This document shows positions 2,190 to 54,206 of a DNA stretch of 64,000 nt, in pieces. The translations under genes were made by a program, and so were the position numbers. Position 1 is the first letter of the stretch, and each line of letters begins with the position of its first letter. Under the pieces are notes generated by a model that was not told where the DNA came from, did not search any database, and saw nothing but the letters and a program-made list of their open reading frames with translations. Source of the stretch: Atriophallophorus winterbourni (lineage: Eukaryota; Platyhelminthes; Trematoda; Plagiorchiida; Microphallidae); contig JACCGJ010016189.1 in assembly GCA_013407085.1 (NCBI GenBank), positions 29,369-93,368 of the forward strand, in the 5' to 3' direction.

Positions 2190-2310
2190 CACTGTTTCAA
2201 GGCTCACTGATCCTAATCTTACTGTCTCCACCTGATGACGGCAAACAGTCAGAAACCGGTAGTGGTGTGTAATTTCGTGGGGTTGGGGGGAGCAACACAT
2301 CACTTAGGTT
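2190..2310 (+). repeat. Hammerhead repeat, family B
   Basis: Shares tttcaaggctcactgatcct, the hammerhead core and gtggtgtgtaa with the copies at 18.3, 34.3, 49.7, 50.0 and 52.9 kb. Confidence 0.8.
2228..2265 (+). ncRNA. Hammerhead ribozyme-like motif (family B)
   Basis: Stem I CCAC pairs with GTGG; CTGATGA; stem II GGC-AAACA-GTC with an unpaired C and A at its base; GAAA; ACCGGT; cleavage expected after the following A. All invariant core positions (C3, U4, G5, A6, G8, A9, G12, A13, A14) are present. The mismatch at the bottom of stem II would weaken activity. Confidence 0.7.
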
Positions 2311-2699
2311 CTGCTTGATCTTATTCACATTGACACTGCATTCCTGAAGGATATATACTACCAAGCCCATATTAGTTTTATAAAGATTTCTTCTTGTCGT
2401 CTTGTCTGTAAAATTTGCAGGACACCTAACCAATTACTGTTTTCATTTTTTAACTAGAAAAGAAGAGAATAATATACTAATAGTTGTCACTTTCCATATT
2501 GCAACAAAAATGTATCGTCCATATATCGTACATGTATAATGAGTTAATAATTATGGAATGCGATGGTCATTGCTCAAGACGAGCTATATAAATATCCACC
2601 AGTAAATTTTATAAATGGAAGCCATATACACTTCATACTTTTAACCATAAACTTTGCCAGCAAATGAAATTGTACATTTATTGTATAACATAAATTTAA

Positions 2700-3060
2700 A
2701 TCAATAATGCTCATTTGCATGCATTTCCGTCACATACTCCCCAGGACCGTGTTCGTGCTATTTACACTCTTCTAATAGGACTAATAAGATCAGGATCCGC
2801 ATGTGCTTGAATCAGTAGAAGAATGGAAACACGTTGCGCTTGTATGCCGCTGTTGTATAAGGTTTGGCACGACCAACAAGTACAATTATGTTTAAACCCA
2901 TGATCATGCACAGAATGCTCATTTACATGCATTTTCATCACACACGCCTACGATTTTTGTTCATGATAATGGGGTTTTCCCTAACTACATGTGGTTGTGC
3001 ACAGGTTGACCATACCAATCTTATCGGACAATGGATTACAAACGCACCTTTTTTAAATGA
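2700..3060. repeat. Hammerhead repeat, family A, inverted pair
   Basis: 2700-2955 matches family A on the minus strand (gcatgcatttcc, atcaggatccgcatg, gaccaaca) and 2960-3060 matches it on the plus strand (cacaggttgaccataccaat), so two units are fused head to head. The frame 2864-3088 in it is not coding. Confidence 0.7.
2739..2778 (-). ncRNA. Degenerate hammerhead-like motif (family A)
   Basis: The stem II hairpin GTGT-AAATA-GCAC is kept, but the boxes have decayed (TTAGAAGA, GAACA), so it is inactive. Confidence 0.5.
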
Positions 3061-4187
3061 AAACTTTCATCCTAATTTGAAACTTTGATGCTGAACATTT
3101 CACAAACATTCGGATCAGAGCACATTCCAACATTTCCAATCACAGGTGCAATGGTAATGGAAGAAGAATCATATTTTGGTGTATCATAGTTTATTTAACT
3201 GGTCAATAAACGAGAAAAAATCCAGGAAGCTATATTTTAATGATTCATTGCTATTCGTATTTAGTAAATGGCACCACCACTTTGATAGTCGTTGATATGG
3301 TAAATGAAATGTTCAAAAAACCGACAACATTAGTGGGTTTGCTGTGTAGCCTAGAATGTCGAATTTGATATTTCTGAAAAACATTTTTGATTTTTCTTAG
3401 TTCTTTTCATTCGAATTCATTTCGACATATTATCATAAAAACAATATTATATAGAAAATTATCGCTGAGAATGTCAACATCTGATATTTTAAATTCCATC
3501 GCATTGCGCGGAGTAGAAAATAATAACATTTATTGGAAATTGTTCTCGTAAAACGCAGGTTTAAATCAAGTCAACTTGCTGCGCGCAATCCACCACTTCC
3601 TGTTCGGACTAACTCCACTTTCACTCGATTTGTCGAGAATTTCGCGAAAAGTGAAGCACGTTCACCAACTGCAGTTAGAGACTGAAATTTCCGCAAAACG
3701 TTCTCATATTTTTCTCCAAATTGAAACGGAGCCAGCAGCGTTCGCAGCGGTAATGAAATTACCAGATTGGTTTCAATTATTCATGTGTCTCATTTTCCAA
3801 ATGATTGTGGAATTATGCCTTGCGAAATTTTGCGTCTCAGTTTCTAGAAGCAGCCGGGTTATTGAAAATCGATTGCATTTGACTTTCTCTATTCTTGTTT
3901 TTCATTTGAATTTCTCCTAAATTTAAGCTGTTAGATAATGCTTTCGTATACAAAGGAACCTTTGCGGTTGAAGTCGGAGACTGGAAATTAATGTCATCAA
4001 AATTATAGAATATTCGAACCACGTGAAAATTCTAATACACCTTGTAATTCAACAGCAGATAGATTGATGTAACGCAATCAAACCAGGGTACATGTTTTTT
4101 TAAGATTTTGACACAGTTCTGCATAAAACAAATCTTATGCTTTTGTGTCAATAAAATTTATAAATTACTATCCAAATTTAACCAGTT
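3061..4187. other. No gene recognised
   Basis: A 114-codon plus-strand frame (3576-3920) has no known motif and low complexity; I see no exon signals. Confidence 0.55.
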
Positions 4188-4385
4188 TCAAGGGAATTCA
4201 ATGTAATTCGAGGTTTTTAATGGTCTAGAAAGCAACAAGCTTAACAACAACCATATGATGGTAAAAATTGAAATGTACGTGTATAAACAAGATAAGGAAT
4301 TAGAATAAGCAGTATATAAGTGTTCAGGAAATGAATAATGCAATAAATATTCGTCTAATTTCGTTTTAAATTCTAATCTCCTATA
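4188..4385 (-). mobile_element. CR1-like LINE copy 6, 3' fragment
   Basis: This encodes FKTKLDEYLLHYSFPEHLYT and the following 3' region; it is highly similar to 6300-6475 (shared aaagcaacaagcttaacaac). The tail lies on its left at about 4188 (cgaattacattgaattcc on the minus strand). It is 5'-truncated at about 4385. Confidence 0.8.
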
Positions 4386-5404
4386 AGCGCTAAACAAGTC
4401 TCTAGCTGGAGTAACAAGTAATAAATCAAAATGTTTGAAGCCACATAACCAAAATCTAACACCATAAAAAATCACTAGGAAATCGAACAAACCTCGTTTT
4501 TAAAAATATCTAGCTAACCAAAAATCTAAAATGAATCTGAATTTCAAACCTACCTATAGACGAATAATACCGCTTTAATAATTTGTAAGTTTCACGTCTA
4601 TCAATTTAAGGTCTACGCGAGTATAAAGTCGGTTTTCAGAATGTGCCTTCCTCCTCATTGGGTCTCGACTGGTTCCACAAGCAATGTGAATCTAATTAGT
4701 TGGACGTAAATCGACTACGTGACAAAACACCTGTCTGGACAGCAGGTTTTGATTACCCGGGTCGATTTAGAGATTAATTTGTTTTCGGAGGAACCGATCC
4801 CAAGGAGGAAATTACGGATGAGCAATCAATCTCAAGTTTACAGCTATAATTAAACAACTGCTGGTTACTAGATGATTGTCTGAGATGAAGTTTTGTTATG
4901 TTGAATTTTATTGTAACCTACTGCAAGTCAAAAATTATTCAAAGAAATCACATGCAGGGGGATATGAAACAATATATCGAAACCTTATTCATTGATGATG
5001 AACGAACATTAATTTATCAATAAATCAATTCCATTCTCTGTTTGTTTTCATTAGATTTAAATTTGGATCGACCCATCTCTAAAATGCTAAACGAATATGG
5101 AATTTGGGAGCCAATATCAGGTGAAATTTCTATGGATAAATTTAATATTCAATTCTTGAAACCACAAACATGTCAAAACCTGAACAACTTGTGCTTTTAA
5201 GTCCTTGTTGGATGAGGGTGGCAAGACCAGCATGTTTAATAACATGTGCCCACTCACATACAGACAGTGTCATACCCATTAACTTGAAGGAAAAATCCAA
5301 GAACGGTTTCGTAGTACTTGAACTCATCAAATTGAAATGCAGCTGATGGATATGCATGCATGTACGATTTTCCGTTCATGCCAATAATCTTGATAACGCG
5401 ATCA

Positions 5405-5444
5405 CTAACTGATGGGTGCAAACAGCACGAAACCAGTCGTGTGG
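5405..5444 (+). ncRNA. Hammerhead-like motif (family A)
   Basis: CTGATGG (A9 has become G), perfect stem II GTGC-AAACA-GCAC, intact GAAA, ACCAGTC. It is the family A copy with the best GAAA side, but the A9 change should abolish cleavage. Confidence 0.65.
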
Positions 5445-5610
5445 TGCATCTCATCGAAATGTTTGCAAATACGTATTTTTCGTTCAAGACAATAGGTTTA
5501 ACCTCATGTGCGTCAGTGTGGGCACATTTGATTCAATGGTGGCTTAAAACCTTAACCTGTTTATAATTTTTCCATTGTGTCAAGCGATGCGTATCCTGAT
5601 AATACTCTCA

Positions 5611-5650
5611 CTACCTGATGAGTGCAAACAGCATTAAACCACTCGTGTGG
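5611..5650 (+). ncRNA. Hammerhead-like motif (family A, G12T)
   Basis: CTAC, CTGATGA, stem II GTGC-AAACA-GCAT, TAAA in place of GAAA, then ACCACTC and GTGTGG. Loss of catalytic G12. Confidence 0.6.
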
Positions 5651-6309
5651 TGTGCGCGAAGAAAATGCATGCATTTGGATGTTTGACAAAAGCCATTTCA
5701 GAAATAATCACAAGGCTCGATTTGCTTTTGTATTTTTAAACTTTTCTGTTAATCGCATTCAATATAATATGATGATCACTCCTGAATTCCTTGATAAAAT
5801 TATGGTTTATTACCTCAGTTTATTATGATGACTATAAATGAAGTTATGCAGAAAATCCCTCAACGAAATGTACATTACAATCAAACGTTTGGTGAAAAAT
5901 GTTAATTGAGTGAAGAAGAGTCCGTTAAATAAATTTTGGCAATTACTGGTCTTGTCAGGCTCAGTCGCAAAAGCGAAATTCCACCGTGCCCATAATCGAA
6001 ATTTCTAATCAGTTCTGATTTCTTCTAGATAGATGCTCCTTATCAGTTGATTTTCGAACCATAGGTCCAACACATATTGGAAGCATCCACAATCGATATT
6101 TTGCGCAAATATTTTCAGCAAAAATGCTTTTTCAAATACTTTTGAGTCACAGTTCGGTATGTAAACGTTCGTTTTCAAATATTTTGCGAACAACGGTTTA
6201 ACATAAATATGATTTTATTCGTTTTTGAACGGTTGCGTGGAATTTCTAATATGCAATATAATTAACTTCTGAGGTGGCATTTCATGATATTATTCAAGAT
6301 AATTCAAGG

Positions 6310-7694: not shown

Positions 7695-7700
7695 AATTTC

Positions 7701-14460: not shown

Positions 14461-16078
14461 CTTGTTGAACAAAGATATGTGAAATATTCATTCGCATGCT
14501 TTTCCGTCACAAAGATATGTGAAATTATGTTTTGGTTCAAGCTAACAGTATTCAACAGTGATGATTGGAGGCGATACAGTCCATTTGAGTTCATATCATA
14601 CCTAGGCCAATCTGGATTAGACTCGAATCATCAAAAAGACATACACTTGTGAAATCTGCCGCGTCAAATATTTTCCCAACAATTTGAGTCGTTAAAATAT
14701 GACACCGATTGAAGTAACATAATTTGAAATCAGCTAAGCGAGGTCTATTGGTACAGTCGTGGTTAAATTTACCTCAATTTTCTAATTAACTTGACGTACC
14801 CATTATTCCATCTCAAGAGAAATACATAAAAATGCCATTGCAAAATATCACTCCAATTTGGAATTACTACGAATGTTGATGCTGAAACATCAAGCGTTTA
14901 CAAACAAGTTTTAATTGACAAGAGAAGATGAGGAACAGGAGTGGTAATGCACATAATACAACTAGTCGCATGTTAATTGAAACGATTACTATCGTGTATG
15001 GTGCCATGAGAAATGTTGAACGTTGAAAACAAGACTTACAGGAAAATTGTTTGATAATTTCTTACAATTTTTCGATTAAATCGATCAGGCTTACAAGAAT
15101 GAATATAGGTTTTAACACGCTCACGCTGTTTCCAAATATATAACACCACGGCAATTAAATCTGACCGTTAATTTTATTGTGAATTTCCGCCTTACTACTG
15201 TCGCGGTCTCTGTCTGCAAAAAGGCGGATAGATACATTTTACGTTACAATGAGCTTAATGGCATACCTCCTTTGCCAATTTCATAACCTGGTTTTCCGGT
15301 GTGCCCCGGAAGTTTCACGTTTCCGTCGTTTTGGGCGTATTGCTCATGAGTTTCGAAAGAATTTTGTACAAATAATCCCCAGTGTTTTGCTAGCTGTAGA
15401 GCCAAATGGTCCATTCGTGTCAAAATACGCGAAGGTTTGTATGGAAACGGTTTGTGTACTAAAACAAAAAATATATCAGCTATCGTTTAGATACAATCTC
15501 AAGATAAATGAAATAATAATCAGGTCAGAAATTATGAGCAGTTGTTTGATTTAACAATATTCTGCATATACTTTGGCCTTAAGTTAAGATACTTTTTACA
15601 GCAATGTCATTGGTTATACACAACTCAATAACGTATTACTCAATCCTCACAACTTAGTAATAGAAAAATTTAATGGTACTAATTATTCCAATGAGTATCA
15701 TACAAATACACATAATTATAAAGATATTCTTTTCATAAATACTGACTTACGTAAGCAAGTTGAACATGTAAGCCACTGTTACGGTGAGCATGAATAACCT
15801 GTTCAACCGAATGTGTACAACCAAATGTTGCTGGTGTTTAACTCATGTTTATGAGCAAAAATCCTCATCCTTATCCTGCGCACCATTGTGCTTAACGAAT
15901 TTTTATCCATCTTTCAGCAATCGTTCGCTAACCAAGTAAAAACCTATCAATAAAAATTGCATGACTGCAATGAGCGCTAAATTTAAATTTCGGCTATCGA
16001 GCACCATAACGCGCTCGTGAAACAATTTTATATTTCTCAATTCAAAATCATAGCATAATTGCCGTTAAATGTACTTAC
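14461..16078. other. Downstream intron or flank of the Ig gene
   Basis: Begins with the donor after Ig domain 2. The next exon should start in phase 1, but none is convincing. Apart from the possible hammerhead-repeat remnant at 15.8 kb I see nothing. Confidence 0.5.
15770..15880 (-). repeat. Possible remnant of a family A hammerhead repeat
   Basis: Resembles the reverse of the family A body (cactgttacggtgagcatg, cctgttcaaccgaatg, atgagcaaaaatcc), without a ribozyme core. Confidence 0.35.
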
Positions 16079-16546
16079 CATGGATATTTGTTATGGCTCT
16101 ATCCAAAATTATCTCAGTCCCGAATTCCCTGGGTTCGTACACTCTACATTCGTACAACCCCGCGTCAAATTGTGTGGCGTTTGCTGAGAACAAAACCACG
16201 TCGCTCCAATATGAATTCGTGGCTTTTGACCTAGTTTGCTTGTAAATATTCGTTCTGTACATCGATTGGCCAACAAGTTGCACGAAGGAATTTGCTAGCC
16301 AGTGAACGATCTCTGAATCAGCGTTGATAGTGTCCAGCACAGAAAGAGATTCGGAATTTGCCAGTAATTTCCAGCGTCGTTTCATCGTAGTTTTGAGACT
16401 AGATGATTGAATTAATCCGTCGTAGCTGTTTTCCGGGCGAAACCAGTCAACCACCGTTCGAGCAGTGTCAGTTGGCTTAACTCGAATTGAACAAGTTAAA
16501 TTGAAGCTCTGGCCCAAACGAATCATCGGTGTCATGGAGATGTGGA
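16079..16546 (-). CDS. Exon encoding second Ig domain of a dpr/DIP-like cell-surface protein (partial gene)
   Basis: This exon encodes a complete immunoglobulin domain of about 156 residues, presumably extracellular. Visible hallmarks are the B-strand cysteine in FNLTC, a C-strand tryptophan in VVDWF, and the F-strand motif DAGLYECRVY. NLT and NAT are possible N-glycosylation sites. The acceptor is a pyrimidine-rich stretch ending ttgttcag at 16547; the donor is atg|gtaagtac at 16078. The exon enters and leaves in phase 1. The entry phase is exactly what the 30986-31298 exon supplies: its final G plus TC gives Val, leading into a linker before the cysteine. The open frame runs on upstream into intron, so the ATG at 16649 is not a real start. 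The C-F loop region is longer than in a typical I-set domain. An RTE-LINE remnant lies just upstream in the intron. The Ig call is secure; dpr/DIP membership is inferred from the order and spacing of both domains. Confidence 0.82.
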
Positions 16547-16699
16547 CTGAACAAAAATAAGTTTGTGGTTGTAATCCTAGACATATGCTGATTTTAGTTG
16601 AATGTATACATCTCATTATTTTTGAATAAATTTTGAGCTTTTTGTCCACTATTAGATTACGAAACCGATCACAAAATTTGTTCAGGATAATTGGTACGC

Positions 16700-17620
16700 T
16701 AAAATGTTATCAATTGTTGTATCTGCGTACGGACTATAGTCAATTACACTCAGGTATTGATTTTTATCTTTCGAAATTACACGCGGATTATACTCTAGGT
16801 CGTGGAACTGTATCACCTCACATCATCATCGATGAAAACTTTAAGGTGAAAACAGTACATCTTTTATCATCATTGTGGATAACCTATTGTTAGACACCGA
16901 GATTGATAAGTGGATTGGTAGAGCAGGTTCCATCTTATTCAATTTGAAACATCATGTCTGGGGCAACCGCAAGTCGACTGTAAAAACAAATGTGATGGTA
17001 TACGGCGCGTGCGTTCTAAATGCTTTACCGTATGGCAGCGAAAACTGGATCATCAACACAAGACACGAATGGAAGCTGAATGCTTTCATTTAAGGAGCAA
17101 CCGCCATATCGTGAACAGATAATTGATGAACAAATTAAACAAGGCCGAATTACTTTCTAAAGCAGGTTTATAGAGCATGTTGACTCTACTACAGCCACAT
17201 CGCATTCGCTGGCTGGGTCATCTTTACAAAATGGGGAATAATCGATCAACTTCATGAAGAGTTGAAATCAGGAAGTTGACCTTTGAGAAGTTAGCACTTG
17301 CGGTACAATGACGTTTTCAACAGATATATGAAAGAGCTTGGCATTGACCCTACAATTCGGAAAGATTTGGCCCTTGACAGCACACGTTAGATGCACTGTT
17401 TATATCTTCATCTCCAACCTAGCAAAGGAAAGAAACTGCATTAGGCTGAGTACTGTAAATCACGCAATCAGTGTGCAATTTCTCAAAACGGTCGATTACT
17501 GCCTTTCGCCGTGGACAGATGTTTCCTCCCGAATATGACTGTGCTTGCATAGCATGAATTCGACATGCATTGTGATTTACACCCTTTTTTGACATGGCCC
17601 GAAGGAGACCTACAACAACT
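16700..17620 (+). mobile_element. RTE-like LINE fragment, RT C terminus and zinc-knuckle end
   Basis: Plus strand. IIIDENFKV near 16830, then LDTEIDKWIGRAGSILFNL, NRKSTVKTNVMVYGACVLNA, YGSENWIINTRHEWKLNAF, then a stop, LLQPHRIRWLGHLYKMGN, and a decayed Cys/His segment near 17500-17560 (SPWTDVSSRI, then HS). This is the usual order at the end of RTE polyproteins (RIRWLGH followed by a C-terminal zinc motif). It is 5'-truncated and lies antisense in the Ig-gene intron, directly next to the Ig domain 2 exon. Confidence 0.8.
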
Positions 17621-17797: not shown

Positions 17798-18164
17798 GAA
17801 TGTAAATCCGAGTTAACAAAATATTAATATGCTTGCTGACTAAACAAGTTTCTGGATTTAAGATAGATAACAGCATTCACCAAAGTTATATGTGAAGAAT
17901 TCATCATAAATATTTGACCAAAGATGCTACTGTTCAGTGATTTCCACAACCTTATAAGCAAAATGTCGAACACGTGCAATATAATATTGAGACAAATTGT
18001 CTAGTGTGTGAGGGATTTTTTTCTCTATCAGAATATAGGTTTTATATTTGTGATTACGTTTGTGCCAGGCAGTAAAAGTGCGAAAGTCGTCATTGGACAA
18101 GGTCATGGCCTGGGGTAGTCAATTTTTCGAATGTTAGTGATGCTTAAACAAGGTTATACTTGTA

Positions 18165-18390
18165 TGCCAACTGTTATATAGGGTTCGTACAACGAACCAC
18201 GATGTTCAGACACGGAATCACAAAGTGATTCTTGGTCAAGCACTCGAGGCGCTTATGGATGACCAAAGTAATGTGTTGCTCACATCCCCATCCCTTACAT
18301 CTTACTGTCTCCACCTGACGATGGCAAACAGCCTGAAACCGGTAGTGGTGGGTAAGGGTTGGGGATGTGAGCAACACATTACTTTAGTGA
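18165..18390 (+). repeat. Hammerhead repeat, family B, with long foldback
   Basis: 18265-18298 and 18352-18385 are 34-bp inverted arms differing at one base. The 53-bp loop contains the ribozyme motif. The upstream part (18165-18265) is shared, inverted, with 27545-27680 (gttcgtacaacgaaccac versus gtggttcgttgtatgaacc). Confidence 0.85.
18311..18348 (+). ncRNA. Hammerhead ribozyme motif (family B, complete core)
   Basis: CCAC/GTGG stem I (4 bp, extendable), CTGACGA (position 7 is free to vary), stem II GGC-AAACA-GCC with a T-T mismatch at its base, GAAA, ACCGGT, cleavage site A. All invariant bases are present. The surrounding 34-bp arms would bring the stem I strands together. Confidence 0.75.
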
Positions 18391-19189
18391 TGCTTATTTG
18401 TAAAACTAGGAACAGTGGGGATATGTGGTGGAACAATTTTTTAAATGCGCAACATTTTTCGGATTATATCCTTGTGATAATTCATGGAAGAAGTGAATCT
18501 AAACAACTTTACTCTTTGCCTGTGACTAAAGAGAATAAAATAATGGCTGAAAATTGATGTCAAAATGCTGACCAACTTCATTGGCTCATGCTACATAAAA
18601 CTTCATCTCAAATTTCGACAGAAATTTTGCTGCTAACACGCAAATTTCACACACAAAAATAACTCTCCGAAATAAATATCTTCTAGAAGGTTTGTTTGCA
18701 TTGACCTACACAAATTAATTGAAGCACTATGTCGCTGCCACTTTAAATGCAACGATGTTTTTAAACTATCCGAGGGGACGCAATCTGATAAAATTTTAAT
18801 CATATTGTGAATGTGCGAGGTGCATTAGCGATGAGCGCGAATCATGAGCTTTCGAATAATATACAGAATTACACCCTCTGGCACAACACGAGAGTAAGAA
18901 GCGCCGAGAATACCAACGACAACAATGGCAAAGTAGTAATATTTCGGATTTCGGATTGATTGCATTCGAACGGTTCGGGCGACAACATCTTCGGAATTAT
19001 GAGATGATCAAAGTCAGCCGCAATCGAACGATATGCAATTCGTCAATGTCGGTCAAACGAGCCCTGCGTGGCGAGGGCTTGAATTGTACTGGTTGCCACG
19101 AAATCGACTGACAAATCAGATCGAAGTGACAACCTGGGCAGACATGTTGATGATCACCGATGTGATAATTTTTTGCCTATATGCGATAA

Positions 19190-19507
19190 GCGTGTGTTTC
19201 ATTCAATCAATTGGAATATGTTTGGAACCGATCGTGTATTCATAATGCAAGGAAATTTGAGTGCAATCGGTTAGAGTAGTTTTTGGGTAACGTTTCACTT
19301 CTGACACAGAAGCTTCGTCAGACCAAGGGTGATAGTCAGGACAGGGAACATGTTTAAGTAGTAGTCAACCCACCACCACTTATTTGACCTTACCGCTAAA
19401 CAGCCCGTAGTACGCCTACAGTGTGTCACGTCTCGTGGGAATGCTCGGGATCAGTGGTCCACTTTCACAGTGTGTATCCAAATAAATCTGATAAAAGTGA
19501 ACACAAG
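19190..19507 (+). repeat. Repeat X, left part (interrupted by LINE copy 1)
   Basis: About 90% identical by eye to the reverse complement of 24010-24330. It contains a conserved self-complementary core, ttctgacacagaagcttcg, at about 19301. The repeat resumes at 22514-22575 after the LINE with ggtcagttgacacagc, matching 23940-24003 inverted. It is non-coding as far as I can see. Confidence 0.8.
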
Positions 19508-22500
19508 TGAATACAAATGAACAGTCCTTGCTGTCAACATCGACCGTCAAATTTTTGTATACGAATGCCCAATGCTTGACAAACTACACGAATTGATTAA
19601 ACTAACTACAACACACTCACCAGACGTGATTGCCGTAACTGAGACATGGTTTCATCCAAAATTAACTGACAATGAATTTGTCATTGAAGGTATGTCTCTA
19701 CTTCGCGCAATCGCCTGACTCGAGGAGGTTGTGTTGCGCTTTACTACATTTCGAGACTGCTCTGCCAAGAGATCACTGATGACGACTTACAACTGCAAGA
19801 CAAATTAAGGTGTTCGCTGAATGTAACAGCAGGGAAAAAATGCATAGTGGGTGTGATTTACCGTTCGCCCTCAGCCGACGAAGCCTACAATTCAGCATTA
19901 CTTGCAAATATACGCTTAGCGGCTACCAGATACCGCGGCAGACTTATTCTGATCGGAGACTTCAATCTGCCGAACTTCAAGGGAAATTCAGTTCATCCAG
20001 AAAATTCTTTAAATGCTTTATATCAACAGTTGCTGGAAGAAATTACACTCTACAACCATATTTTCAACAATACCCGATTTCGTGGTACTGATACGCCGTC
20101 TATCTTGGACTTGATACTGACAAATGAGGAGCACGTGATTGAAAGTTTCACTTATGAAGCTCCGTTAGGAATCAGTGACCAGTTAGTTATCACGTTTGGT
20201 TATATTTGCCAGGCAATCCGAGCAAGTGACATCAACAAGGTGATTAGAAAAATTGACTTTTCACAACTTAAAACTACTCTTAAGAACGCCAAAGACCCGG
20301 GTCTTAAGTCCGACAACGTGCACGATCAGTGGCAGTGGATGATAAACGAACTTAAGTTCGCCGTTGAAATGCACTCTCATCTTCTTCCAAAGGTGCGAAA
20401 AATGAATATACATTTAAGCTGAGAAGCCGATAACGAAACTGGTTGACCTTGCGAAATGCTGTATTGCGGGCTCATCGACATGATACCACTGTTGAGAGTT
20501 GGGAGACATTCTGTTTTCTGATAAATAAAGTAAACAAACTTGTTGTTGATGACAAACTGAATTATCAAAAGCATTTACTCAACAAAATGGAATCAAACCC
20601 CAGAATTCTCTACCAGAACATAAATAACCGGTCAAGCGTGAAACCAGGAGTTGCCGCTCTAAAGACACGTGATGGAACAACAACCATCGCAATCTGCCGA
20701 AGTTCTACCTCATTTCTTCTCCACTTTTTTCAGCCCACGAAACACCGTTACCTGTCCCTTAACTCCCGTCATCTCACCCGAAAATGTTTTACAACGACTA
20801 ACTATTACCTCGGAAAGTGTCCTCCACACGTTGCTAAATCTCAACACGAGAAAATCTCCGAAGCTAACGAAATTACCCCGTTGTTTCTTAAAATCTGTGC
20901 TTATACTTTGTGTACGCCTCTCACCTACTTGTTTAACCTCTCTTTAACCCAAAAGTTCGTTCCCTGTGATTGGAAGAATGGCATCATTACCCCCATCCAC
21001 AAAGGAGGAAACTGTTACGAAGTATCCAACTATCGACCAGTAACACTACAACCGGTGATTTCTAAAGTGATGGAGCGCCTCGTAGCAAACAGCGTCACAA
21101 AACATCTGGAAGACAATTGCTTGCTCGCAGTCGAACAACACGGCTTCAGAAAAAGACTCTTGCCTTTCAAAATTTCTGCTCGCCCTCGATGACTGGACTC
21201 AAGCTGTAGACAAAGGTCTTACCGTACACGCTTGTTATCTTGATATGTCGAAAGAATTCGATCGTGTCAACTACAGTCTGTTACTACAAAAGATGGAGCT
21301 ATGTGGAATCAAGGGTTCATTACAAGCCTGGTTTGAGGATTATCTCCGCGACCGTGTCATTCGAGTAAGGGTTGATGGTGCTTTGTCATGACCTATTGCA
21401 GTAACGAGTGGGGTGCCGCAGGGATCAGTGCTTGGACCAATTCTTTTCCTGATGTATGTCAACGACTTACCTAAACTTGCTCGCTGCAAAATCCTGTTAT
21501 TTGCGGATGACATCAAGCTGTGAACACAAGTACGCACAACTGAGGATTGCAGACAGCTTCAGCTGGACCTCGCTGCCTTACAAGACTGGTCAGTTAGAAA
21601 TGAACTACCTTTCAATGTCAGAAAATGCAAGGTATTGACTGTTAGAAGACATTTCAAGTTCTCTTACACTCTTGGTTCCAATATTCTCGAAAGCACCTAC
21701 AATGAGAAGGACTTGGGTGTGTGGGTGAGCAGCACTTTGAAACCGTCACATAACGCCACAGCTGTCTATGAAAAGACGTAACGAGTACTGCTTCTGCTAA
21801 AACGAGTGTTCGGGAGTTTCACGAAGCAAACCGTTCATCGAATAATTAATACGTACTTGAGGCCAACCATGGAGTATGCGGTTCAGGCTTGGTCACCCTG
21901 GCTACAGAAGGATATCAGCCTCTTGCAGAGAACATATCATCGGACCACCAAGCTCGTACGCGTTTTGAAGCACAAATAATACGAAGATCGCATTGCAAGT
22001 CTCAATCTCTTCGACTCTTGCTACTTCCGTCTTAGAGGTGATTTGATTCTTATGTTCAATATACTGCATACCCCCAACCATCTCGTAAATAAACTATTCA
22101 CGCGCCTACCACCCAGAACCAGCCGGAGTCACGACTATACAGTACTTATTCCCGACTCGAGACTAAACTGTCGAAGGTATTTAATTATGTACGTGTAGGC
22201 TTTACCTGGAACTCCCTACCCTGTAATGTTGCACATTCACCCAACTTGGATATACTCAAATCGAATTTGGACAATTTCATGTTGACCAATCCAAACTTTG
22301 AAACTATAAATTTTACACCATAAAAGCTTTGAACTTTGAAAACAGTTTCTTTCCAATGGATTTTTACTTGATTCCTGAAGTGCTCAGTAAGCAAACAAAT
22401 CCCGTTTTTCTACTTATGTTATTCGTAATTCCAATATTATTCTGTGGTTTTTGTTAAGCTATATGCTTTTCAGACCATCAAAATTGAATTGAATTGAAAT

Positions 22501-34259: not shown

Positions 34260-34375
34260 TATAAAGGCTCACTGAACCTAATCCTACTGTCTCCACCTGA
34301 TGAGGGCAAACAGCCAGAAACCGTTAGTGGTGTGTATATGTGGGGGGGTGAGCACCAAAATATAAATAAATATCA
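34260..34375 (+). repeat. Hammerhead repeat, family B
   Basis: Starts aaggctcactgaacctaatc and ends ggtgagcacc; no arms beyond these are recognisable. Confidence 0.8.
34293..34330 (+). ncRNA. Hammerhead ribozyme-like motif (family B)
   Basis: CCAC, CTGATGA, stem II GGC-AAACA-GCC with a G-A mismatch at the base, GAAA, ACCGTT instead of ACCGGT, A, GTGG. The core is intact but the stem III palindrome is broken by one change. Confidence 0.7.
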
Positions 34376-42740: not shown

Positions 42741-45394
42741 ATATACAAAACAAAGGAATAGATATATTCTTTTCTCGTAGACATGTTTCCTAAAGTATGC
42801 GAGTTGTATTGAAATAAATAATCACTTCAACCCGAATAGGCATATAAAATATTTCTCTATTTATTGTTTCATTTATTCAATTCAAGTGTACTGATTATAT
42901 TTCATATGATTTGACTCAAAAGTTGAAATCTATAGTGCCATGAAACAATGCTACACACATCAACTAAACAATGAAACTGCAATGTACCGATTCAAAATCG
43001 ATAATTCGGCGCCGCATATAATAGTAATGTCGAAGTTGACTAATGGATTTTATACAATAAATGTTTTCAGCCAATACGATACATCGTTCTGCAAAAGTAT
43101 ACTATAATTCAAACTCCGGGCTACTTTGTGTGTTAATTCAACTGTACAATGTCCAATCTGATATGTCACAACCGCTTCAATATACCAATCAATTCTGACA
43201 GCTACGGGGACATTTTTGTGAAAAGTGAATAATAGCAAACGAATAAATAGACATGCTTGGGCCACACCAGTAGTGGCATCGATCAGCTTATGGTTCATTA
43301 ATAATATTGCATGTAGTTCAGAAAATATGGATACAGTGGATAGTTTAGGATACACGTGTTTTTTTGAAATGTTGTACAGAGATTTGTGAGGCTGGATTAC
43401 TTCATATTTTAAACTGACACAAAATATCGTTACTCACAACAGTTGAATATTTTCTGTAATAAATACTTTACGAATCACAAAATAATTCCAAGTTGATCAA
43501 AAAGGTTAAAACGGACATATTCATTTATCTCTTCTCATTTTCTGTATATATATGGTTATTATTTGAATTGCTAAGTATCTGCTAAAAATATGTCACAGTT
43601 TGAATAGCAGTGAAGTTTAATGGATGGTTAGCCAATGTCTGCTCAAATGTTATGTATATTTCTGTGATATGGGAAATTTTCATACATGAGTCAAATCTGA
43701 CCTGAAGTGCTGATCTCCGATTATGAAAACAACTCAGATCTCAGAACTCAGAAAATTTTATGGTAGAAAAAGCATTAAGCTTAACAATAACCATAGGATG
43801 ACAAGGTAGATGGAACATATAAAAAATATATAAAATATCTCAAAAATCAATAGGGACACTCGCATACCGCATGGTTCGTCATAAACTCAGCGAGTTTGGA
43901 AGCGAAAACCTCAACAGATTCTGATCGTGTGATTTCTTCAGGCAAATAGTTCCAAGTGAAACAAATTCTTACCGAGAAAAAATTAAGAAAAGTTATTTTG
44001 TTAAATAAATACACTTTTAGTGCAAAAACATTAGTTAGTGCCTTTTTACGAAATTTTTTCATGCAAAAGTTTATTATAGAAATATCAGAAACCAAGTGTT
44101 GAATTTACAGTTTGTACGAAAATTGTTCTTGCCTTGAAACATGATTTTAAATGTAGAATCACAGAAATATTTTAGGTGACAATCTCATGACGCTTAATCA
44201 AACATCCATTTTTGTTTATGTTATATTCTTTGCACTTAAATTGTGCATTCGAACATTATTTATCGCTTGACGAATTCCTTTTCCCGTGGCTTAAATATCA
44301 AACATTGCATATTATTTTACTGCTATTTCGAAACGTATTCTACTTTAGCTTGTGCGGGAAGTCCAGTGCTGTCAGTCGAGTGTAATTAAGGATTACATGA
44401 ACAACACAATATATTATTAATGTATAAACTTGCTCTGCGTTTGATCTGGAACTGATTTCGGATTTTGTATTTGAAAATAGTGATTATTTTTATGAACCAT
44501 ATTGAAAAATGACGTGGAAGGCTAAATTTGTTTAGCACTTTTTCACAGTTTGAATCCCAACTGAATATAATCCGTTCAATGATAACAAAGAGCAAAATGG
44601 CATCCTGGGTTGTAGGTGAGGGATATCTGAGCACTACATTGAATTAACATTCCAGTTATAAAATTAATAGTTTAGTTGATTGTCATTGATTGATTTCATA
44701 TTTGTGCGATCATTATTTGAGCACCTTGGAATCGAGAATATTTTGAATTGGATTTTTATATGCTTCATGTATGGTCCAGCTTGAATCCGCTAAACCATGA
44801 GTAAAATTATCTGCTTTGGTATATCAGGTAAGCAATCGAATACTTTATATTATCTATTTGATATAAATAGCATTTCTTTTCAAATTCGAATAATGCGATT
44901 CCGTTATCCGCATTTTTATTTATTAATAGAAATTGAGAGCTGTTGCATATTCAGGAAACATTTTTCTTCACCGTCTAAGTCGATTTCTAACCCCTTTGTT
45001 CTGATTAGTTTGATTACACACCTCACTTGCCTTCCTGTTTGAACGGTAAAAATTGCAATTTGGCGTCAATTAAAGAGGGATCAACAATAAATCTTTGAAT
45101 CCCGCGACATTGCGTTTAATTTGGATCGATTTCCGAATAAGATTGGCCTAACTAATTCCTTCAGACACTGATAAACTTGCCTTGTCAAGATATTCAATCT
45201 AATCTACTGAAATAAACGACCCTGCTGAGGATGGAAATACCGACACTGACTGTTTAATATGGGACAGTTGTTGTAAAGGTTGGTGCTTTTGTCACCGTAA
45301 CTTCTTAAATCTTGAAACTAGAATATTGATGCACATGGTATATACAGACTAACCAGTCAAAATAGCTGGCACGCTCCGTTGCCGCTCATCAATT
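42741..45394. other. No gene recognised apart from the LINE fragment at 43.7-44.0 kb
   Basis: Frames at 43050-43355 and 44386-44634 (minus) have no known motifs or convincing splice sites. Confidence 0.5.
43728..43985 (-). mobile_element. CR1-like LINE copy 4, short 3' fragment of the copy-2 subfamily
   Basis: This encodes only the last about 45 residues (RICFTWNYLPEEITRSESVE then MTNHAVCECP), followed by the same 3' untranslated sequence and CTGAGATCTGAGTT-type tail as the element at 24.8 kb. Identity over about 250 bp is very high by eye. The 5' end is truncated at about 43985, a classic short LINE insertion. Confidence 0.85.
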
Positions 45395-48240
45395 CGATTC
45401 AAGATTCAAGATTCAAGAATTTATGGTCACAAAAAGCACATAGCTTCACAATTACCATATCATAGTAAATATTCGTTCGGGAAATAGGTATAAAATAAAC
45501 ATGTAATGTCAAAAATAGTCAAGTTGTATAGTTACCATGAGTCAATACGCAGGTGTCGTCAAATCGTTATGCAACAAATGAGTATCCAAATTTCGAATAC
45601 ACGTTTCGATGCTGGGAGAGATGACAAGAGTTTCGGGGAGGGAATTCCAAAGGAAACAGACACGTACACAATAAAAATATCGGCAACAGCTGATACGGGA
45701 GTGGGGAATTTGCAGTGTCGCTGAGTGGCTGCGTGTATGTCGAGACTCACGGTATTCGAATAAATGTTTTAAGGGTTGATGTGGGGTATTTAATATTTTG
45801 TATGTTAGTATCACATTGCTTCGAAGGCTTCTTTGAAGGGGAGTGGGAAGCCTCAGTTTTTGCAATCGTTCCTCGTACGTTAGATTCCGGAAACCTGTTA
45901 CGAGTTTGGTTGCGCGATGGTATATTTTGTCAAGCAATAGTATATCTTTTTTTAACCACGGAGTCCAAGCTTGTGATGCATGCTCCATGGTTGGAAATAT
46001 ATAGGCTTTCATGATGGTGGGCAACGTTCCAGGCGAGAAGGTTCTGAAAATCCGTCGCAGCATACCTAGAAGCTTGGAAGCACGCTTGTAGATAACCTCA
46101 CAATGCAGGCTGTTCTTCAGGCTGCCGCATACCCAGACTCCAAGATCCCTTTCCGATTCTGTCCAGCTCAAAATAGTCTGCCCAAAGTGATATTGGTATT
46201 GGAATGGCTTACCAATTTGCAACACCTTGCATTTTTGGAAATTGAATGGCAAATTATTCCGTACCGACCATTCATGTAGAGCATCTAGATCACGTTGCAG
46301 CTGTACACAGTCCGCAGTTGTTTTTATCAGCGTCCAAAGTTCAATGTCATCAGCAAAAAAGAATCACCTTGCATGCGAGCGTCTCTGGTAGGTCGTTGAC
46401 ATAAGCCAAGAAAAGTACTGGCCGGAGGACTGAACCTTGCTGGACGCCACTAGAAGCATCAATAGCCTGTGATTGTACCCCGTTGATTCGAACGATCGCC
46501 TTGCGCCCACTGAGGTAACATTCAAGCCATATGAATAGCTGTCCGCTGATACCCATCTGCTTCAGCTTTTGTGTTAATCGAAAGTGATCAACTCGGTCAA
46601 AAGCTTTAGACATATCCAGATAACAAGCGTGGATGCTAGCTCCATCGTCAACCGCTTGGGTCCAGTCATTTAAAACCGTCAACAGGTTTGTCAAGCACGA
46701 GCGAGATTTACGAAAACCATGCTGCGCTACAGATAGCATATTTTGTGAATCCACGTGATAAACTATATTTTCTGTAACTATACGCTCTAGAACTTTGGAT
46801 ATCACAGGAAGTAGGGTGACAGGACGGTAGTTTGCCGGATCTGAACGTCTACCGCCTTTGTAGATAGGTGAAATTACCCCTGTCTTCCACTCTGTTGGCA
46901 CCACTCCTTCAATTAGAGAATGTTTAAACAATTCACACAAAGGTTCACACAGCTGCTGGCACAGGATTTTAGTATAGTCGGAGTGATTCCATCCGCTCCA
47001 GGGGATTTCCTAGGGTTCATTCGACACAAATGTCGTTGTATAATCACTGGATTTATCATGATCTCAGTCAGCTGTTGCGTCACTGTTGATGGCTGTAATT
47101 CTTCAGTCGATCGAATCGCTAACGGACTAAATACTTTAGCATAAAATTGAGCGAGAGCATCAGCTGTTTCCTTTGCTGAGACTGTTAATCCATCGTCAGT
47201 AAGAACAGGAAACACCCCTGGTTTCACGCTCGATCGAGCATTGACAATCCGATAAAGCAATTTAGGATTTCCTTCCATTTTCAAAGATAGAAAGCGATGG
47301 TAATTTTGCTTGTCTTCTTTGATGAGAGTGCTCACTTTGTTGCGAATTCTGCAAAATTGTTGCCATAACGCATCAGTCTTGGTATTTCTGTGTTGAAACC
47401 AAGCAGAGTTCCTTTGCCCGATCCATTTTTTCGTGCGACTACAAAGTTTAAAGCGAAAGTCGCTTACCCTTCGTTCATTAACAAATCGCGAATTTTGATA
47501 TATGTTTGACTGAAGACTTTTTGTAAGTGTGGTGCAATGTGTTTTCGTGTTGTGATAATTAAGCATTCGCCAATTTACTAACCCAAGCGCGTCACGTAAA
47601 CTCACGTATTCGATCCTTCTGAATAGATTTGCGGGCTCACATAATCGTCTAGCGCTGCATACATTTTCAAAACCTAACACAGGATGATCACTTTGACCGA
47701 GAGGGGCAATGTAGTCAACACCTTCAACTGCTGTTGTCTCGGATGTAAGGATTAGATCCAAAACGGACGGTAACTCTGATCCTCTTCTGTGAGTAAAGTC
47801 GGACACATGGTTATGCAGTGGAATCATGTAGATCAGCTCACGGAATTTATGATCAGGTGTGTGTAGAGGGTGATCTGATCTGTTAAAAAGATGAGAAAGG
47901 TTTAAGTCTCCCATGACCAGTAATTGGGAGCTTCGCATCTCTCAAGCATATTGTAGAGCCTTTAATACTCTGTTGTTTTGAGCATACGTCGAAGATGGAG
48001 GGCGATATATTATACCAATGATGCAGTCGTCCTGTGACTCCTGTGTAAGGCTACACCAGAGGGTGTCTTCTGATTCGAGATTGGGATCGTGAATCTTCAT
48101 GCACTGAAGACGTTCGTGAAAGTACAAAGCCACACCACCACCTTTTCGTGGGCGATCGTTCCGTAATAGTATCATGTTTGGGATCGACAGTTCGCTTTCA
48201 ATCATACAAGATTCAAACCAGGTTTCAATGTGTTCAATAA
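45395..48240 (-). mobile_element. CR1-like LINE copy 3, best-preserved copy (EN-RT, 5'-truncated)
   Basis: Minus strand, 2.85 kb, beginning inside the endonuclease (IETWFES near 48220) and ending in a tail of CTTGAAT repeats (45398-45420). Only about three coding lesions are visible, fewer than in any other copy here, so this is probably the youngest insertion of the family in the window. The tail repeat differs from those of copies 1, 2 and 4, so it belongs to a distinct subfamily. Confidence 0.88.
45542..48220 (-). pseudogene. Endonuclease-RT pseudogene of LINE copy 3 (three lesions)
   Basis: Endonuclease: IETWFES, RKGGGVALYF, GIIYRPPS, LLVMGDLNLS, SVLDLILTSE and GQSDHPVLGF (catalytic SDH intact). 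Linker SSVKPGV. RT: NPRKSPGADGITPTIL, SPIYKGG, NYRPVTLLPVISKVLERIV, QHGFRKSRSC, YLDMSKAFDRVDH, GVQQGSVLRP (PQG has become QQG), then the FADD region, KDLGV-type thumb and MEHASQAWTPWLKKDILLLD. Breaks are one in-frame TGA at about 47942 between IIYRPPS and MGDLNL, a frameshift near 46930, and a frameshift in a T run at about 46364 exactly at the FADD catalytic motif, which restores the original frame. The second frameshift destroys the two adjacent active-site aspartates in frame. Confidence 0.85.
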
Positions 48241-49483
48241 AACTTGAAATGGCGTATATGTGTTTAAAAAGTACAATCGAAGTAATATTCGGAATACATT
48301 GTTACACGAGATTTCATTGTTGCGATGTTTTTAGGCAACTGCTATAATCTTTGGAAGAACAGGTTTGTGTCAACGTATACAACCATTTTGTGTATAATTG
48401 GACAATCATCAAGTTTTGATTATTGAATATTCGCATTGTTCCAAACGTGTGAAAACATTCCTTTGGGTCAAAATCAAATCCAAAAAAATTCACTCACCAG
48501 CAAGATCACAAATTTGTTTGAACATAATTTGGGATATGTATATGTTTGCGTACAGCATACGTTTAGTAAACGGAATACTGTTTATTTAAAAATTCAAAAT
48601 ATCCGGTCCGATGAACTTCACTATCAAATAAAGCATAACACGTTTATAAATTTACTAGCTAAATCAATTCGATTAACATATTCTCTGTTAAACAGGTAGT
48701 CATCTGATTATGTTGTTCCAATTGTTCTCAACCGATTGGAATTTTAGAAATTCGCCTGTCAATATCGAAATATTTTCTGTTCAATTCTAGGAAAAAATCA
48801 CCCAGGACTGCTGAAGCATCCATTAGAGAGTAAACAAGGACAACTGCCAAATTCAGCTGTCAGTTGATGTTCATTTTTCTCCGTGGTGACATCAATAACC
48901 TACGAATTCTCGTGGGAAACTTTTTTCTTTTGCTGTCCATTGTTCACATCTTGACATGATCAAACAGCATTTCTATTTCGCCGAATCTTTGCAAATCAAA
49001 GCGATACCGTGCGTATAAGTTTAGTCTTCAAAGTAAAACTTTGTCTACTACTGATATTGCTACTACTGATATCTAACTGAACATAAACTTTTCTCTTGAT
49101 GAAGCCATAATGCAGGGGACCAGCAGTGAAGTGTAAGTTCGGGAGATATGAGCAAAAAAGGCACTTTCTTAAATCGAATATGGATCAAATGGGTACTGAC
49201 ATGGAACAAAGATCAATTATCATTTTCCAATATGAGGCAAAATTTCGAAAAAACAAACACAAGAATCAATCATAACGGGCAATGTTTAAGTCATGTAATT
49301 CGTGTCGCATATCGATTTATATTTGGAATAAAAATTTCCACCAAAAGACCTGCAACACCAACAACGTTCGGCCAGTAAGCATTTGAAAACGGAAAATTAG
49401 TAGTTTATTTTTTTGGGCCATCCAAAATTTATATTTTTGATAAATGTTTTCAATTCCAAATGGACAGCCTAATTGCGTTAGCT
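48241..49483. other. No gene recognised
   Basis: Sequence beyond the 5' truncation point of LINE copy 3; AT-rich. Confidence 0.55.
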
Positions 49484-49751: not shown

Positions 49752-49788
49752 CACCTGATCACGTGACACAGCCAGAAACCGGTTGTGG
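49752..49788 (+). ncRNA. Degenerate hammerhead-like motif (family B)
   Basis: CTGATCA (G8 has become C), disrupted stem II, intact GAAA, ACCGGT, GTGG. Confidence 0.5.
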
Positions 49789-49978
49789 TGTAATGGATGG
49801 GGATGTGAGCACCACAATATATGGTCTTTCATGAGCGCCTTGATTGCATAACAAGGAATTACATTGTCATTCTGTATATGAACATCGTGAATATATCTAA
49901 ACACCCTATTTAACAGTAACATTCAAGTATAACTCTGTTTAACACTATAACACTGTTTCAAGTCTCACCTTACTCTCT

Positions 49979-50016
49979 CCACATGATGACGGCCAAAAAC
50001 CAGAAACCGATAATGG
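49979..50016 (+). ncRNA. Degenerate hammerhead-like motif (family B)
   Basis: ATGATGA (C3 has become A), GGC-CAAAA-ACC, intact GAAA, ACCGAT, A, ATGG. Confidence 0.5.
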
Positions 50017-50215: not shown

Positions 50216-50540
50216 TATAAAACACATTTGCATGCATCTCCTTCACACAAAACACCCCACGACCGGTTTAGTGCTCTTTGCACTCATCAGGTAGGGACAC
50301 TAGGATCAGGATCCGCATGCGCTTGAAACAGTGGAAGAATGGCGAAGAAGTTGCGCTTGTATGCAACTGTTGGGTAAGGTTGGTACGACCAACCTGTGTG
50401 AAGGAAATGCATGCAAATGTGTTTTATATTTATGGTCATGGGTTTTAAACCCATTCTACATGAGTGGGGGCTCATGTGATTGAACAGGTTGGTCGTACCA
50501 ACCTTACCCAACAGTGGCATACAAGCGCAACTTGATTTAG
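50216..50540. repeat. Hammerhead repeat, family A, head-to-head foldback
   Basis: The minus-strand unit occupies 50216-50400 and a plus-strand unit 50400-50540. gtgtgaaggaaatgcatgca at 50396 recurs inverted at 50226, and the segment with aggttggtacgaccaacct recurs inverted at 50482. The transcript of either strand could fold back over most of its length. Confidence 0.75.
50257..50294 (-). ncRNA. Hammerhead-like motif (family A, G12T)
   Basis: CTAC/GTGG stem I, CTGATGA, GTGC-AAAGA-GCAC, TAAA, ACCGGTC. Everything is intact except G12. Confidence 0.65.
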
Positions 50541-52879: not shown

Positions 52880-52985
52880 ATGTATTGTGGTGCTCACGTC
52901 CCCATCCCTTACACACCACTACCGGTTTCAGGTTGTTTGCCATCGTCAGGTGGAGACAGTAAGACCAGGTTCAGTGAGCCTTGAT
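52880..52985 (-). repeat. Hammerhead repeat, family B, minus strand
   Basis: In reverse it reads aaggctcactgaacctggtc, the core, then gtggtgtgtaagggatgggg and gtgagcaccac. Confidence 0.8.
52916..52953 (-). ncRNA. Hammerhead ribozyme motif (family B, complete core)
   Basis: CCAC/GTGG, CTGACGA, stem II GGC-AAACA-ACC (one C-A mismatch), GAAA, ACCGGT, A. All invariant bases are present. Confidence 0.7.
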
Positions 52986-53803
52986 TAACTAGTTTTTAAG
53001 TCATATTTTCAAACGTCCAGGTGAAAACCAAATTATTCACGACAGAAAAATTCCTTATATTGGTGCATGAATGATTTTGTCGCATTTGCTCCAAACTACT
53101 TACAAGTATAAACTAATTCGCAATTTACTCCCACATGATTTCATGTATTATTTCGTTGTTGTGCGTAGAATTACAGATAACTGAGAAATGGTTGAAAGTC
53201 AGTTGTGCGACAATAATTCGCAGGAAAGTAGGAGGTTGAACACCCGACATAGGGAACTTGCGTATTTTGCGGTTATATTATCAGTAACGTGTCTACGAAA
53301 CTTAGCGTGAATTGCAACATTCTGCGTTCACCGATTTCAAAGCCTCGGACATCAAATGCAGTTTCTTTCAAGATGTTTCTGATAGTTAGTTTCACTCATC
53401 TGTTTTCCAGACTTTTAGGATGCATACGAGTTAGGTACGGTAATAAAGTGAGAATCACCTTGTTTTACTTTCAAATTCGTAAAATTATGAGTTGTTTCGT
53501 AAAAACCGCACATCTCTGTTGATTTTGTTTATCGTAACTTTTATCAAAAATGTTTTTAGCGTAGAGATTCATGATTTAGTAGAAACTAAACTGACTCGAA
53601 TTCTAACAGATACTCGAAAAATACGCTTGGCCTGATTGACTGTGGCGCATAAATAGTTGACGGCTGAATAGTGCATTAAGTTTCACTAGCTACATGAGTG
53701 TGAGCTCATGTATATGAACAGTTTGGTCGTATAGTGCCATACAAAAAATTGTTTACCATTCTTCCACTGTTTCAAGCACGTGCGGATCCTGATTCTACTG
53801 TCC

Positions 53804-53841
53804 CTATCTGATGAGTGCAAACAGCACTAAACCGGTCGTGG
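53804..53841 (+). ncRNA. Hammerhead-like motif, unit 1 (G12T)
   Basis: CTGATGA, perfect GTGC-AAACA-GCAC, TAAA, ACCGGTC, GTGG. G12 is the only lost core base. Confidence 0.65.
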
Positions 53842-53899
53842 GATGTGTGTGTGTGTGTGATGGAGATGCATGCAAATGAGTTTTTATTCATGGCCATGA

Positions 53900-53908
53900 G
53901 TTCAAACC
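53900..53908 (+). promoter_or_regulatory. Candidate Pol III B box in family A repeat
   Basis: gttcaaacc fits GWTCRANNC. It recurs in weaker form in other units (51606, ttcaaacgc). No convincing A box was found at the usual distance upstream, so Pol III transcription is only a suggestion. Confidence 0.3.
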
Positions 53909-54043
53909 CAGTCTACATGAGTGGGGGCTCATGTGATTGAACAGGTTGGTCGTACCAACCTTATCAAATAGTGGCATACAAGCGCAACTTGTTTACCATT
54001 CTTCCACTGTTTCAAGGGCATGTGGATCCTGATCCTACTGTCC

Positions 54044-54081
54044 CTACCTGATGTATACAACCAACAAGAAACAGGTCGTGG
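54044..54081 (+). ncRNA. Degenerate hammerhead-like motif, unit 2
   Basis: CTGATGT (A9 lost), stem II destroyed, GAAA, ACAGGTC, GTGG. Confidence 0.45.
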
Positions 54082-54168
54082 GGTGTGTGTGTTGGAGGTG
54101 CATGCAAATGAGCATTTTTTCACAAGGAACACTTATTCAGAAGCACGTGGACCGTGATCGTAATCCAT

Positions 54169-54206
54169 CTATCTGGTAAGGGCCAACAGCACTAAACCGG
54201 TGATAG
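54169..54206 (+). ncRNA. Degenerate hammerhead-like motif, unit 3
   Basis: CTGGTAA, GGCCAACAGCAC, TAAA (G12T), ACCGGTG. Confidence 0.45.

Follow-up and report, generated by a model that had tools for sequence, protein, structure and literature searches.

The stretch analysed here comprises 64,000 nucleotides of the trematode Atriophallophorus winterbourni (GenBank assembly GCA_013407085.1, contig JACCGJ010016189.1, positions 29,369 to 93,368; hereafter the window). It has a GC fraction of 0.32-0.42 and carries repeats built around hammerhead ribozyme-like motifs, the copies of which are very likely, for the most part, decayed, non-autonomous and non-coding retroposons of the kind known as metazoan non-long-terminal-repeat (non-LTR) retrozymes. 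Hammerhead retroposons of this kind are already known from many animals; the value of the present copies lies in ends that can be read. A preliminary description of the window had reported about twenty such motifs in two families, A and B in what follows. The eight loci named there (2228, 5405, 18311, 34293, 50257, 51750, 52916, and 53804) were re-inspected together with 42694, and all nine proved hammerhead-like, those at 50257 and 52916 on the minus strand.

Hammerhead-like repeats and their architecture

Both families possess a type I hammerhead within a longer outer hairpin, a second hairpin after it, and units in tandem. The core and three stems occur in order and stem I continues into the outer hairpin, an arrangement that is degenerate in most copies. 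Read between successive cleavage sites, the unit begins with the 3′ strand of stem I, the 3′ arm of the outer hairpin, a spacer, and the second hairpin, designated hairpin P (GGTTNG-TYGTA-CNAACC). There follow a block like CAGTGGCATACAAG, the block TTCCACTGTTTCAAG, the 5′ arm of the outer hairpin, stem I, CTGANGA, stem II with its AAACA loop, GAAA, ACCGGT, and H17. Hairpin P is seen in family B at 53944-53960 (+; GGTTGG-TCGTA-CCAACC) and in family A at 18182-18198 (−; GGTTCG-TTGTA-CGAACC), where the fifth pair is compensated. In the best copies stem III is a single A-U pair around a CCGG palindrome. Arrays of two or three hammerheads lie at 5.4, 49.7, 51.5, and 53.8 kb; the tandem units measure 206, 228, 234, 235, and 240 bp, with a GC fraction of 0.38-0.45 in all five. 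Among repeats of at least 40 nt no other repeat frames the copies, the search not extending to polypurine tracts or primer-binding sites. In the spacer of family B, a word resembling a Pol III B box was spotted by eye.

Iterative nhmmer produced 33 matches in the window, many of them fragmentary, and 30 were aligned; the 16 with a readable core form alignment A1, in which the 5′ sides of the family-A rows 49745 and 49966 are misaligned. A covariance model (R1), trained on eight family-B copies only, returned 36 matches up to E 5. Nineteen of these have E<0.01, including 11 from outside the training set, which bears out the presence of hammerhead-like motifs and makes "about twenty" a fair count; the weakest match below that threshold, at 2921-3000, is chiefly one arm of the outer hairpin. 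A single exact pattern had no match in viral_contigs or genome_contigs, neither of which is an animal-genome collection.

The two families do have distinct stem sequences, as had been described, but they are not separate: they are homologous outside the ribozyme as well and, judging from sequence, are branches of one element type. In family A, H17 is A in five of six cores, and all six have a non-standard pair (C.A, U.U, or G.A) at the stem II foot; in family B, H17 is C in nine of ten cores and the foot pair is standard in seven of the ten. An exact ACCGGT is present in 7 of the 16 aligned cores, and none of the ten family-B cores is free of core changes, four having lost G12. The motif originally proposed is departed from at 5405 (CTGATGG and ACCAGT), 34293 (ACCGTT), 51750 (GACACCGTT), 53804 and 50257 (TAAA), and 42694 (without ACCGGT). 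The compensated stem II reported for the last of these was found as stated, GCGC/GCGC versus GTGC/GCAC.

Base pairing and insertion marks

In A1, 78.2% of cells are paired as stated (24 pairs, 16 sequences), compared with 29-43% in slid versions. The outer helix reads GCTCAC/GTGAGC in family A and GCATGC/GCATGC in family B, so that three pairs differ in both partners; at pair 67-77, stem II has U-A in ten copies and G-C in six, and the pair is broken in none of the 16; and hairpin P has, as its fifth pair, G-C ten times, G-U once, and C-G three times (all in A copies), again without a break. Set against 500 shuffles, the paired cells, double-changed cells, and covariation score of A1 are all high (reached by 0, 2, and 3 shuffles, respectively), and those of hairpin P were reached by 2, 24, and 3. 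The hairpin P alignment (A3) contains 14 of 18 matches, 16 of which had been aligned; its paired percentage is flattered, since the omissions include 53715 (without a 3′ arm) and 15807 (which pairs poorly).

Family-A copies held out of training were scored by R1, with structure, at 62.4 (52949m), 60.7 (34293), 52.0 (2228), 45.9 (18311), and 28.8 bits (49966); on sequence alone (model R2) the corresponding values were 37.8, 41.4, 38.9, 34.0, and 18.5. Structure thus adds 10-25 bits in five of six held-out A copies and 7-15 bits in the eight B training copies, in a comparison that is not a clean one, since filters were off for R1, whereas R2 used the default ones and reported partial matches. 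At 18311, an inverted flank may contribute part of the gain. The suggestion that the source elements of both families were held to an RNA structure is supported by this gain and by the compensated outer helix, stem II, and second hairpin: two homologous families that differ in sequence and retain the same pairing indicate that RNA structure was kept.

Fifteen clusters of copies (prefixed C below), in 16 boundary rows set by the author from BLAST edges, were tested for target-site duplications (TSDs). The duplication at C15 had been noticed by eye beforehand, and weak pieces at 9.6, 11.8, 15.8, 23.3, 41.8, 49.1, and 54.6 kb were left out. Exact TSDs of 9-13 bp occur in six of the 16 rows versus 6 of 300 random flank pairs that share an exact repeat of 9 bp or longer (Fisher p about 5e-6); the six are AT-rich, with 14 G or C per 61 bases by hand count. 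Family-A insertion C5 (18134-18396, +) has a 13-bp TSD, TTAGTGATGCTTA, at 18134-18146 and 18384-18396, and between them an element (18147-18383) made up of an inverted spacer and a hammerhead with its core at 18311. Two further family-A insertions are short: C8 (34253-34373, +), in which the 10-bp, low-complexity TSD AAATAAATAT bounds an element of 101 bp (34263-34363), and C15 (52871-52991, −), in which the 9-bp TSD GATTAACTA bounds one of 103 bp (52880-52982) with an intact core, a stem II foot of U.U, and a broken loop-closing pair. In family B, C7 (30241-30368, +) has a 9-bp TSD, TCCATCCAA, and an element at 30250-30359 with an insert that interrupts the core. The element of C13 (50205-50543; 11-bp TSD TGATTTAGACT) extends over 50216-50532, its minus-strand part 50397-50216, with a hammerhead at 50290, standing head-to-head with a plus-strand part from 50395. 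Array C16 (53675-54240, +; 9-bp TSD ATTAAGTTT; element 53684-54231) has hammerheads at 53804 and 54044, a decayed third at about 54170, and a unit of 240 bp at 53838-54077.

In five of the six TSD-bounded copies the 3′ end lies at a nearly constant step past the outer hairpin, namely 10, 11, and 12 nt in family A and 15 nt in both copies of family B. Measured from the predicted cleavage site, with which none of the five ends coincides, the A ends are 37, 39, and 40 nt away, that of C7 45 nt, and that of C16 30 nt, its third motif having a deletion there. The array units inside C14 and C16 continue straight through this position, so that the constant end is not simply a universal RNA stop, and its simplest reading is a start point of reverse transcription. 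A Pol III terminator was rejected as the general cause since the three family-A ends have no T run; in C7 and C16, both of family B, the end falls in a T run or just past one. C8 and C15, which consist of the hairpin alone, also have starts no more than 1 nt apart, at 64 and 63 nt upstream of the cleavage point. Head-to-head inversions are found in 6 of the 15 clusters (C2, C3, C4, C5, C13, and C14), two of which (C5 and C13) also have a TSD; no tail-to-tail inversion was seen among the 15.

Remaining copies and neighbouring elements

The other family-A copies comprise C1 (2185-2316, +), with an intact core at 2228, a C.A stem II foot, and A at H17; C6 (27555-27754, +), which retains the spacer, hairpin P, and the 5′ half of the hammerhead; and the tandem C12 (49745-50043, +), with two decayed hammerheads and a unit of 228 bp (49785-50012). 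In family B, C2 (2687-2948, −; hammerhead 2819-2706) is head-to-head with a plus-strand fragment at 2988-3055, and in C3 a decayed minus-strand piece (5183-5361) is head-to-head with the plus-strand tandem after it (5374-5680; hammerheads at 5405 and 5611; unit 5439-5644, 206 bp). C4 (10083-10469) likewise has a minus-strand part, 10284-10083, head-to-head with a plus-strand part from 10333/10336 to 10469, C9 (42632-42723, +) is the copy with the compensated GCGC/GCGC stem II and is decayed past that stem, and array C14 (51421-52058) sets minus-strand 51508-51421 head-to-head with a plus-strand array of three hammerheads at 51520 (without its 5′ end), 51750, and 51984, the units being 235 and 234 bp; a TSD was looked for here and none was found. 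A solitary, weak hammerhead-like site at 23312-23386 (+; Rfam HH9 19.1 bits, nhmmer E 4e-4, R1 E 0.53) is perhaps a strongly decayed family-B copy. When short stretches were scanned with Rfam, other models surfaced: microRNA models at 18.3-18.4 kb, and a microRNA and a viral stem-loop model at 50.4-50.5 kb, are consistent with the long inverted repeats that head-to-head insertion leaves and are not regarded as RNAs of those kinds, and a bacterial leader model at 50.1-50.2 kb was judged a chance match.

By its contents the window is eukaryotic, the sequence including pieces of long interspersed nuclear elements (LINEs), a Mutator-like element (MULE) transposase, and an immunoglobulin-domain exon; no tRNA gene was found within it by ARAGORN. 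Copies of a LINE that include frames for an endonuclease, a reverse transcriptase, or both, and which we take to be CR1-like, lie at 45400-48300 (−), 25100-26360 (−), and 19688-21780 (+), that at 45-48 kb terminating in TTGAATC-type repeats. The sequences 24793-25051 and 43731-43988 are a pair of copies with an identity of 93-94%, the former having a 7-bp TCAGAAC repeat at its end; their frames have LINE C-terminal-like text in common, and they are probably the 3′ ends of a single LINE family. A different set of repeats, direct and inverted (91-96% identity), occurs at 19204-19466, 23584-23658, and 24053-24314. The MULE transposase (PF10551, PF21056) and, after it, a FAR1-like frame that narrowly misses its Pfam cut-off (27.5 vs 28.1) occupy 59163-61297 (−) and have the look of a Mutator-type transposon; adjoining the MULE element at 61333-61445 is a two-unit tandem repeat of 54 bp with CCAATCA words. 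The immunoglobulin-domain exon was identified by Pfam at 16065-16703 (−), and a frame at 30855-31295 (−) resembles it by eye, without a Pfam hit; the two perhaps belong to one minus-strand host gene.

Classification, mobilisation and known relatives

The assignment to the retrozymes rests on a type I hammerhead, short tandem units (about 150-450 bp), a GC content below 50%, and TSDs longer than 4 bp. Hammerhead-bearing repeats like short interspersed nuclear elements (SINEs) and Penelope-like elements with hammerheads had been mentioned earlier as established; the tandem 206-240 bp units with TSDs fit the retrozyme class better than a SINE. A number of results weigh against this interpretation, beginning with the cores, of which only four of the 16 aligned are intact (2228, 18311, 34293, and 52949m, all family A), and in all four the stem II foot carries a non-standard pair. 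No site in the window satisfies a strict descriptor (GAA, with stem II pairing that starts at its foot), and CTGANGA alone is only mildly enriched (40 vs 27.4, reached by 1 of 100 shuffles). In the covariance check suggested in the preliminary description, R1 found copies outside its training set and the Rfam families gave 0 matches at gathering scores across the window. At E≤10, four of the five Rfam matches in the window are to hammerhead families, all far under gathering (the best 20.9 bits vs 52, and 20.2 vs 34), and on 4.6 kb the Rfam hammerhead models saw four B copies weakly (20.9, 20.2, 19.8, and 18.3 bits). Double-changed pairs show no excess in A1 (8 vs 8.2 in shuffles, reached by 334 of 500) or in hairpin P (1 vs 1.0, reached by 357 of 500), and the number of pair types is no higher than in shuffles (reached by 450 and 291 of 500, respectively), because the variation is mostly a single difference between A and B. 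Family-A copy 49745 is non-significant with structure (E 2.6) and unlisted in the sequence-only search, and structure lowers the scores of the held-out B fragments 30258, 51482, and 54135. Neither 12 isolated motif pieces (z +0.96 to −2.10) nor one linear unit (z −1.14) folds better than shuffles, and five circular unit folds, of decayed copies, likewise give a rod-like circle no support (z −1.2, −1.0, −0.7, −1.8, and +1.8); the stretch 18254-18396 folds far better (z −9.05) only because it is an inverted repeat. Finally, no TSD of at least 9 bp was found in 10 of the 16 boundary rows, TSD-bounded C13 ends elsewhere than the other five copies, and no Penelope-like protein (reverse transcriptase or GIY-YIG) appeared in the 20 of 221 frames of at least 60 amino acids that were scanned with Pfam.

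As for catalysis, the sequences suggest that the present copies are mostly not working ribozymes and that most are dead. The copies at 18311 and 52916, which had been put forward for cleavage assays, are weak candidates as monomers rather than complete ribozymes, since both have U.U at the foot of stem II. Of two axolotl ribozymes described in the literature, one, with a one-pair helix III and a palindromic tetraloop, is a poor self-cleaver as a monomer and improves as a dimer, and in the other a U.U mismatch occupies the helix II base (PMC7229834).

Mostly broken cores, the silence of the strict descriptor and of Rfam at gathering, and double-changed pairs no more frequent than in shuffles are also what would be expected of ordinary SINE or satellite repeats that resemble a hammerhead by chance. 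We find this hardly credible, given that two B copies meet a relaxed descriptor (NAA) of which 200 shuffles contain a mean of 0.015 and a maximum of 1 site, that four A cores are intact, and that the differences between the families in stem II and the outer helix are compensated. The family-A short copies might instead be miniature inverted-repeat transposable elements (MITEs), DNA transposons perhaps driven by a MULE, with terminal inverted repeats that mimic the outer hairpin. C8 and C15, at 101 and 103 bp, have TSDs of 10 and 9 bp and inverted GGCTCAC/GTGAGC near their ends, MULE TSDs are about 9 bp, and the window has a MULE transposase and FAR1-like frame at 59-61 kb. The inverted arms are not terminal, however, 10-12 nt lying beyond the 3′ arm in all three TSD-bounded A copies; TSD length varies from 9 to 13 bp; and the arrays, the head-to-head parts, and an outer arm in B whose sequence differs but whose pairing is retained argue for an RNA intermediate, all of which renders a MITE origin very unlikely.

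That the copies are solo or tandem pseudo-LTRs (pLTRs), with tails, of an autonomous Penelope-like element is a more serious proposition, though still an unlikely one. Minimal type I hammerheads are found in the tandem pLTRs of Penelope elements (PMC7761336), and the copies resemble these elements in inversion, TSD length, and 3′ end (PMC3846280, PMC11167929). Yet it is whole units of 206-240 bp that repeat, which leaves no room for a coding part between the hammerheads, and the 20 of 221 frames scanned with Pfam include none for a Penelope-type enzyme.

For a retrozyme, the cycle would begin with transcription of a tandem locus. The type I hammerhead, with its one-pair stem III and CCGG palindromic loop, would release units of about 206-240 nt from the multimer, probably by way of pairs of motifs joined through ACCGGU/ACCGGU, as the sequence and the published axolotl analogue suggest; by analogy with the class, the units may then be ligated into circles. 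A reverse transcriptase supplied in trans would start at a fixed internal site, 10-12 nt (A) or 15 nt (B) past the outer hairpin, a step for which the fixed end is seen in five copies and the internal initiation is conjectured from it. Insertion would follow, with the AT-rich duplications of 9-13 bp that are seen here and, at times, with several tandem units or a head-to-head inverted 5′ part, both of which are likewise observed.

The enzyme would more likely be of the Penelope type than that of the window's LINE, the TTGAATC-type repeats of the 45-48 kb LINE being present at none of the six TSD-bounded 3′ ends. The head-to-head junctions do not decide the matter, because twin priming of LINEs yields them too. 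Penelope insertions are reported to include head-to-head inverted pLTRs, duplications of 8-10 bp in a subset of copies, and sometimes a short tail (PMC3846280). A purified Penelope enzyme favours AT-rich sites and starts inside the RNA, 111-118 nt into the open reading frame, which lies beyond the hammerhead cut (at 26); mutation of the hammerhead had no effect on insertion in vitro (PMC11167929). By this analogy the copies here match Penelope insertions in kind, and we regard the chances of a Penelope link as about evenly balanced. A bolder proposal, which we offer tentatively and consider doubtful, is that the hammerhead-bearing outer hairpin is a cis signal for a Penelope-type reverse transcriptase; retrozymes would then be non-autonomous Penelope elements in which the hammerhead is kept for cutting and for recognition, copying beginning a fixed step past the hairpin (10-12 nt in A, 15 nt in B) on multimeric or circular RNA. 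If true, this would explain inserts of 101-103 bp that contain almost nothing but the hairpin. The 2020 retrozyme paper left the mobilising enzyme open and named Penelope-like elements as a strong candidate (PMC7229834). Readable ends make the question testable: the partner would be identified by agreement, across the genome, of the constant 3′ end, the head-to-head junctions, and the duplications of 9-13 bp with the ends of a Penelope element resident there.

Among known systems, Penelope-like elements are about ten times longer than the units described here, which are without a protein-coding part. The resemblance to them lies in the minimal stem III, the tandem and head-to-head arrangements, TSDs of 8-10 bp (PMC11167929, PMC3846280), and insert ends that lie within the RNA, beyond the hammerhead. 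Copying of the anole element begins about 85-92 nt beyond the site of ribozyme cleavage (PMC11167929); the corresponding distance in four copies here is 37-45 nt. Metazoan non-LTR retrozymes share the type I hammerhead, units of 170-400 nt (220-240 bp in coral), GC below 50%, and TSDs longer than 4 bp, and, in the axolotl, one ribozyme has the one-pair helix III with a palindromic tetraloop and another the U.U helix II foot; the copies here have a sequence of their own, and their head-to-head inversions and constant 3′ end are not met in the passages of that account drawn on (PMC7229834). The hammerhead satellites of newt and axolotl are similar in their weak stem III and in being efficient only as dimers, and differ in their 330-350 bp units and, in the axolotl, in numbering up to 120,000 copies (PMC7229834). 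SM-alpha and the W-elements of schistosomes are likewise SINE-like or satellite-like hammerhead repeats with a very short stem III and some broken cores (PMC8490949); the copies differ from SM-alpha (W36.2) in size, the latter measuring 335 bp and the units here 206-240 bp.

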